Positions 35,596 to 35,965 of a stretch of DNA of 60,943 nt are shown piece by piece. The DNA is taken from the NCBI GenBank assembly GCA_003241845.1, contig QBMN01000003.1:1-60943 (forward strand), read 5' to 3'. Origin of the DNA: Shackletoniella antarctica. Lineage in GTDB: Bacteria; Cyanobacteriota; Cyanobacteriia; Phormidesmidales; Phormidesmidaceae. The position numbers were made by a program, and so were the translations under genes. Within the stretch, counting starts at the first letter, position 1. Every line of letters starts with the position of its first letter. The notes beneath the pieces were generated by a model. The model made no database searches. It was not told the origin of the DNA and saw only the letters and a list, made by a program, of their open reading frames with translations.

Positions 35596-35668
35596 GGGCG
35601 ATTAGCTCAGTTGGTAGAGCGCCTGCCTTACAAGCAGGATGTCACTGGTTCGAGTCCAGTATCGCCCA
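35596..35668 (+). tRNA. tRNA-Val (anticodon UAC)
   Basis: Full cloverleaf: acceptor GGGCGAT / ATCGCCC, D arm AGCTCAGTTGGTAGAGC, anticodon stem CCTGC / GCAGG with loop CTTACAA (anticodon TAC) and T arm CTGGTTCGAGTCCAG; CCA is not encoded. A TACTAT box near 35569 is a plausible -10. The tRNA is also the target of the homing guide: PAM GTA at 35614-35616 and protospacer 35617-35633. Confidence 0.97.
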
Positions 35669-35678
35669 TATGTTTCAT

Positions 35679-35803
35679 TGTTGTACGTTCGCACATTAAA
35701 TGTCGCGGTTCGCAGATTAGTGTCGTTTTTCGCACAATCATATCGTTCTAGCCGAAATGGAAGGGTTTGGCCATCTTTTCTGCGATTCGCAAATTAGATG
35801 TCG
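35679..35803 (+). mobile_element. Type V-K CRISPR-associated transposon (CAST) end with four TnsB-type sites
   Basis: Four repeats of the form TTCGCANATTA(A/G)-TGTCG start at 35688, 35709, 35729 (degenerate) and 35786: three closely spaced and one set off by about 40 nt. This is the spacing I recall for the left end of Scytonema-type V-K CAST. The terminal TGT lies at 35679 (TGTTGTAC) or 35682 (TGTACG). That is 62-65 nt after the GTA PAM in tRNA-Val, inside the 60-66 nt window known for Cas12k-directed insertion. No transposase or Cas gene follows before hisC, so only the end survives here. Confidence 0.85.
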
Positions 35804-35811
35804 TAAACAAT

Positions 35812-35850
35812 AAAAAAGAGGCTTGGTACAAAATGCCGAGCCTCTTTTTT
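35812..35850. terminator. Two-way rho-independent terminator between CAST end and guide
   Basis: AAAAAAGAGGCTTGG and CCGAGCCTCTTTTTT form a 15-bp stem with one G-T wobble and a 9-nt loop; T-runs lie on both strands. It can end the tRNA-Val transcript on the plus strand and the guide-RNA transcript on the minus strand. Confidence 0.85.
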
Positions 35851-35911
35851 GCTCGAATTTCTGAAATTCCTGCTTAGTGCGGCCATGAATGAGCTGTGAC
35901 AGATTGCTTTA

Positions 35912-35965
35912 TTGTAAGGCAGGCGCTCCTTTCAACCCTTCTGATTCATGATTTTCCAACTTTCG
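35912..35965 (-). CRISPR. Delocalised degenerate CRISPR repeat and self-targeting homing spacer
   Basis: Read on the minus strand, a 37-nt degenerate repeat (35965-35929) ends in GGGTTGAAAG, the conserved 3' end of V-K CAST repeats. The next 17 nt (35928-35912) are GAGCGCCTGCCTTACAA, identical to tRNA-Val 35617-35633; the 18th base differs. A short 17-nt match with a GTN PAM at a tRNA gene is the known pattern of V-K homing guides. The terminator at 35812-35850 would close the transcript. It is a single unit, not an array. Confidence 0.85.

Follow-up and report, generated by a model that had tools for sequence, protein, structure and literature searches.

A gene-less remnant of a type V-K CRISPR-associated transposon that retains its guide to tRNA-Val in Shackletoniella antarctica

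A contig of the Shackletoniella antarctica draft genome (GCA_003241845.1, contig QBMN01000003.1; C221 in our numbering) carries beside an intact tRNA-Val the left end of a type V-K CRISPR-associated transposon (CAST), followed by a truncated CRISPR repeat with a 17-nt spacer on the minus strand and by traces of further repeats (35596–36093). The window analyzed here is this whole contig of 60,943 bases. The locus is what remains of a V-K CAST rather than a working element. We put at about 90% the probability that it is a left-end scar whose genes were lost by rearrangement and which, with no tracrRNA, effector or transposase in cis, is most likely inert. Truncated homing (anchor) spacers of V-K CASTs are already known, and the locus is a clear fossil of that known layout.

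The attachment gene, tRNA-Val (anticodon TAC; 35596–35668, plus strand; ARAGORN and Rfam), contains the PAM GTA at 35614–35616 and the adjoining protospacer GAGCGCCTGCCTTACAA at 35617–35633. The left (cas12k-side) end of the CAST occupies 35682–35803 on the plus strand, as delimited by reading the sequence and by alignment with the ends of relatives, and it shows what marks a V-K CAST end: a TGT terminus, here TGTACG, and several TnsB-type repeats. Four such repeats run in one direction (35688–35705, 35709–35725, 35729–35745 and 35786–35803) and share the form TTCGCA...TGTCG, the third finishing in TATCG instead. The preliminary description of this DNA had placed a TnsB-repeat end 62–65 nt after the PAM; the exact figure is 65 nt between GTA and the start of the end. 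A strict 18-mer repeat pattern scanned across the window picks up just two of the four repeats, and with three mismatches allowed it fits 4 sites in the window where 3.09 are expected, which alone is not significant. Since the strict pattern does not rise above chance, comparison with relatives was relied on instead. The end can be aligned with its counterparts in three genomes of the genus (G007, G008 and G011) whose CASTs at this tRNA carry cas12k; the mean column identity of that alignment, 84%, refers to the whole stretch 35597–35945, tRNA included. A failure of the repeats to align with V-K ends, which would have spoken against the preliminary description, thus did not occur, the ends compared being those of same-genus V-K CASTs rather than of ShCAST or AcCAST. 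A pattern scan found no second copy of the end in the window, and the sole other copy that a blastn search of the genome lists is one at tRNA-Thr. GTACA sites are listed in the window, none of them resembling a right end; the other end is gone from the window, so there is no target-site duplication to compare. Fold prediction places a hairpin flanked by an A-run and a T-run (35812–35850, no strand assigned) between the fourth repeat of the end and the anchor spacer; it is perhaps a terminator of array transcription. Hairpins of differing sequence hold the same position in three relatives. A consensus scan for promoters and terminators reported nothing, this hairpin included, the promoter part being weak, with just 0.9 matches expected by chance.

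The guide and its repeat sit 230 nt inside the end. The 17-nt homing (anchor) spacer at 35912–35928 is identical, on the minus strand, to tRNA-Val 35617–35633, and is adjoined at 35929–35941, on the same strand, by a truncated CRISPR repeat (R*), which reads GAAGGGTTGAAAG in the window and GGAGGGTTGAAAG in G007, G008 and G011. These are the degenerate minus-strand repeat and the 17-nt tRNA match that had been described about 0.25 kb on from the end. The features by which a V-K anchor is recognized, namely a truncated repeat, a short self-matching spacer, a GTN PAM and an end 46–82 nt from the PAM, are all present. The 17 nt are also the longest reverse-complement match between the tRNA and the interior, compared with a longest match of 12 nt, reached in 2 shuffles, among 2000 mononucleotide shuffles of the interior. 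A second 17-nt antisense match to the same tRNA-Val stretch was found in G016, some 200 nt downstream from the tRNA-Val of that genome (roughly 206 nt counted from the tRNA start). An inverted repeat encloses this match, and no V-K end or CRISPR repeat end adjoins it; on these grounds we rejected it as another guide. An antisense tRNA-Val match resembling that of G016, but changed, is seen in G025. The G016 match, standing without an end or repeat, argues against trusting a 17-nt match alone. What decides is the combination together with the comparison: the same end, the same guide with its repeat end and the same tRNA-Val recur in relatives that carry cas12k.

These relatives show what the complete locus looks like. 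G007, G008 and G011 possess the same end, guide, array and cas12k at the same tRNA-Val, and the Cas12k model NF038191 scores approximately 702 bits for G007 and G008. In all three, a long conserved non-coding stretch comes after the array and is taken, from its position, to be the tracrRNA; cas12k then follows on the minus strand. Sequence conservation between the window and these genomes is concentrated in the tRNA, the repeats of the end, and the guide plus R*, and is much lower elsewhere. Private differences in the end columns number 3/76 in the window, against 1/74, 5/78 and 3/76 in G007, G008 and G011, respectively; for the guide and R* they number 1/30 in the window and 0/29 in each of the three; and in the remaining columns they rise to 34/62 in the window, with 10/38, 24/52 and 5/33 in the same three relatives.

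We extended the comparison to the tRNA-Val locus of 26 genomes of the genus. This end type lies at tRNA-Val in six of them (the window's own genome, G000, with G007, G008, G011, G017 and G021), and V-K-like ends of other repeat families occur there in G002, G009, G022 and, in decayed form, G018. At most a short terminal piece is found in G012, and in 12 genomes no end stands beside tRNA-Val (G001, G003, G004, G010, G013, G015, G016, G019, G020, G023, G024 and G025). Only 4 bases lie downstream of the tRNA in G014, and in G005 and G006 the exact tRNA falls outside the stretch examined. The outcome that would have counted against an insertion, relatives carrying the same sequence with no empty site, therefore did not arise; the comparison is one of presence and absence rather than of an exact empty site, as the genomes without the insert differ downstream of tRNA-Val and the relatives are too distant. 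The identical 17-nt guide is present in G007, G008, G009 and G011, and in G022 too by its pattern, while that of G002 matches over 14 nt. G009 has a different end family, yet an identical guide. Ten genomes of the genus thus have an end at tRNA-Val. Five carry cas12k nearby (G007, G008, G009, G011 and G022), and in four it was not found in the stretches examined (G000, G017, G018 and G021); the contig of G002 stops before cas12k could show, hence it is counted in neither group. Among the four gene-less ends, the window alone has kept the guide, none being seen in G017, G018 or G021 within the 400 to 650 nt examined beside the end.

The low number of changes in the functional columns of the window, similar to that in the gene-carrying copies and set against the many in the remaining columns, could also be read as a sign of retained function, whereby the TnsB sites by tRNA-Val would confer target immunity or the guide would serve an incoming CAST in trans. 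According to the consulted portion of a review (PMC11406308), target immunity seems to be a property of V-K CASTs. We nevertheless consider retained function quite unlikely. Recent gene loss, a simpler explanation, predicts the same column pattern; nothing resembling a tracrRNA survives in cis, and the promoter scan, albeit weak, was empty. Guide retention is moreover not general, as the guide-free ends of G017, G018 and G021 attest. Earlier ends may also not have blocked new insertions: in G008 (L070, near 16180) and G011 (L072, near 14830) a right end abuts an apparent V-K end of a different repeat family, an arrangement that suggests repeated insertion at one tRNA. In neither genome do the 5 bases just outside the left end match those just outside the far end; since the TnsB gene of G008 lies approximately 41 kb inside the far end, the left and far ends may not belong to one element.

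Beyond the anchor, the window retains two traces of the array. A decayed full-length V-K CRISPR repeat (35989–36025, minus strand) matches the repeat of same-genus CASTs at 30/37 positions, with 7 mismatches, and a repeat fragment in the opposite orientation (36073–36093, plus strand) matches at 20/21 positions, its orientation suggesting an inversion. The first repeats of intact arrays in relatives are likewise imperfect. The fragment runs into a joint at approximately 36.09 kb, which holds an insertion-sequence (IS) terminal piece (36091–36134) and a second dispersed repeat (36131–36235), neither with an assigned strand. The IS end is dispersed in the window's genome and in related genomes, and one related copy is adjoined by reading frames with HTH and rve transposase domains. 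The second repeat, of about 105 bp, also occurs at C4 and in several related genomes, and is multi-copy in G048 and G054. Outside the CAST, a gene at 36257–37315 on the plus strand follows, which we take to be hisC. The left flank of the scar is collinear with the tRNA-Val locus of relatives; a 92-residue reading frame at 35128 has homologs in 21 of the 26 genus genomes, the window's own counted, and in at least 11 relatives the homolog and tRNA-Val share one stretch. The right flank, from 36255, is instead collinear with the hisC block of relatives, and in G008 and G011 this block starts approximately 550 kb from tRNA-Val on the same contig, which places the scar on a rearrangement breakpoint. 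A reciprocal joint was not found, and part of the G008 region that precedes hisC matches contig C38 of the window's genome. By inspection, no tracrRNA-like stretch is present in cis, the IS end standing where the post-array stretch of relatives would be. An Rfam search at a permissive threshold over 35000–37000 returned nothing beyond the tRNA above the gathering score, and a plasmid collection gave no match to the locus.

The genome-wide searches proposed in the preliminary description agree with a loss of the machinery. The window's genome is a 4.71 Mb draft in 287 contigs, with completeness given as 99.93%. The Cas12k model scores over its cut-off in 13 of the 26 genus genomes, and the window's genome is not among them; it holds an 88-residue cas12k fragment at C60 (98.7 bits against a cut-off of 150) and a marginal 13-bit match. 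TnsB homologs (E up to 0.01) were found in 14 of the 26 genomes and none in the window's genome, using as a query a TnsB of this end family with a Mu-transpos_C domain, encoded adjacent to an end of this kind in G020. Nor did the window's genome match TnsC, in a search run with no positive control. These results bear on a reading in which assembly fragmented or collapsed an intact CAST at repeats and the hisC join is false. The joint does run through dispersed repeats, so that misassembly might explain it, hisC lies elsewhere in G008 and G011, and in a draft of 287 contigs a missing gene could be unassembled. An artefact of this kind is nonetheless very unlikely in our estimation, because an assembly of such stated completeness yields no cas12k over the cut-off and no match to TnsB or TnsC, and because decay also affects the array repeat close to the joint, though the imperfect first repeats of relatives temper the latter point. 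That the repeats and the 17-nt match bear no relation to CASTs is vanishingly improbable. In favor of this reading stand the chance-level repeat pattern and the G016 match; against it speak a 17-nt identity unequaled in the shuffles and, in cas12k-bearing relatives, a tRNA-Val locus with the homologous end, R*, guide and PAM.

Our preferred explanation, a left-end scar of a V-K CAST, would have arisen as follows. The ancestral element would have been aimed at tRNA-Val by a short crRNA composed of the truncated repeat and the 17-nt spacer. As the layout and the relatives suggest, Cas12k would have bound the tRNA gene beside the PAM GTA, and Tns proteins would have placed the element 65 nt downstream without disrupting the tRNA. 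A later rearrangement, probably IS-linked, would have passed through the CRISPR array and joined the remainder to the hisC region, removing the tracrRNA, cas12k, cargo, tns genes and right end. The break itself is evident from synteny; its cause and the order of events are our reconstruction. The guide probably persists because the time since the loss has been too short for erasure. The claim of an RNA-guided insertion whose guide outlived tns and cas12k accordingly gains support from the cas12k-bearing CASTs of relatives with the same end, guide and tRNA, the RNA guidance of the original insertion being something we infer from the layout.

Two further remnants were identified in the same genome. 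The first, at tRNA-Thr(CGT) on C124 (1–956), has an end of the same family as the tRNA-Val scar, an 18-nt guide to its own tRNA-Thr with PAM GTA and a spacing of 59 nt, two repeats and a portion of the presumed tracrRNA stretch. It ceases to resemble relatives 98 bases before the contig ends, and a cas12k beyond this point would be out of view. The second, at tRNA-Leu(GAG) on C60 (6749–8097), has an end of another repeat family (TTCCGGAATT), a 16-nt match to tRNA-Leu (the last repeat base counted as spacer) with PAM GTT and 65 nt, array repeats and a cas12k piece comprising the first 88 residues. The genome thus holds three remnants at three tRNA genes, each with a guide matching the tRNA beside it, and no working CAST was detected in it. 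Were gene-less V-K scars, comprising TnsB sites and an anchor spacer, a stable end state kept beside tRNA genes as immunity marks or in-trans guides, these three guide-matching remnants would be its signature; we find this idea very doubtful. Regardless, the combination of a tRNA, end repeats and R* with a 16–18 nt tRNA match makes past RNA-guided insertions countable, three in this case, and counting scars offers a way to measure the gain and loss of V-K elements. Should the TnsB sites still provide immunity, the presence of scars would also influence the choice of tRNA genes available to new elements.

To place the locus among known elements, we compared it with published V-K CASTs. The consulted portion of PMC9938897 describes the V-K left end as usually downstream of a tRNA gene, with the array in reverse orientation, a truncated repeat of approximately 12 nt, an anchor spacer usually of 17 nt, a GTN PAM and 46–82 nt between the PAM and the end. 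The window shares with such elements the left end at a tRNA, R*, the 17-nt spacer, the GTN PAM and the spacing (65 nt), but differs in having no tracrRNA, cas12k, tns genes or right end, and an array reduced to a decayed repeat and a fragment. The same portion mentions degenerated cas12k genes, and V-K decay is thus common to both; the degenerated elements there were located via cas12k or regulator genes. A gene-less scar has neither and would escape such gene-led searches, as it would any search starting from cas12k or tnsB. We found no description of a gene-less V-K scar in the literature searched, including the consulted portions of PMC9938897, PMC11406308 and PMC10293859; Saito 2021 and Hsieh and Peters (2021 preprint, 2022) may describe one.

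Across the class, the pattern of a guide with a repeat end was detected in 10 of 388 genomes, once in each. Searching with three Cas12k proteins (tblastn) located cas12k near the anchor in seven of the ten (G007, G008, G009, G011, G022, G257 and G318). The contigs of G002 and G302 stop 1.6 and 0.3 kb beyond the anchor, too short to show cas12k, whereas the window, with approximately 25 kb of contig beyond its anchor, has none by the same search. In a collection of named records, seven stretches bear the anchor pattern, and all seven have an upstream protospacer with PAM GTA; six contain cas12k and the seventh stops 300 bases after the anchor. Several of these stretches come from the same genomes as the 388-genome count, and records of the window's genome may be omitted from the collection. 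One close named counterpart is the V-K CAST of the filamentous cyanobacterium CCT1, which is among the sources of PMC9938897 according to the portion consulted; it shares with the window the tRNA-Val, PAM, 17-nt guide and end family. The V-K CAST of Nodosilinea nodulosa PCC 7104 shares the tRNA-Val, PAM and 17-nt guide, but its end is of another repeat family. Unlike the window, both the CCT1 and PCC 7104 elements carry cas12k and an array of several repeats.
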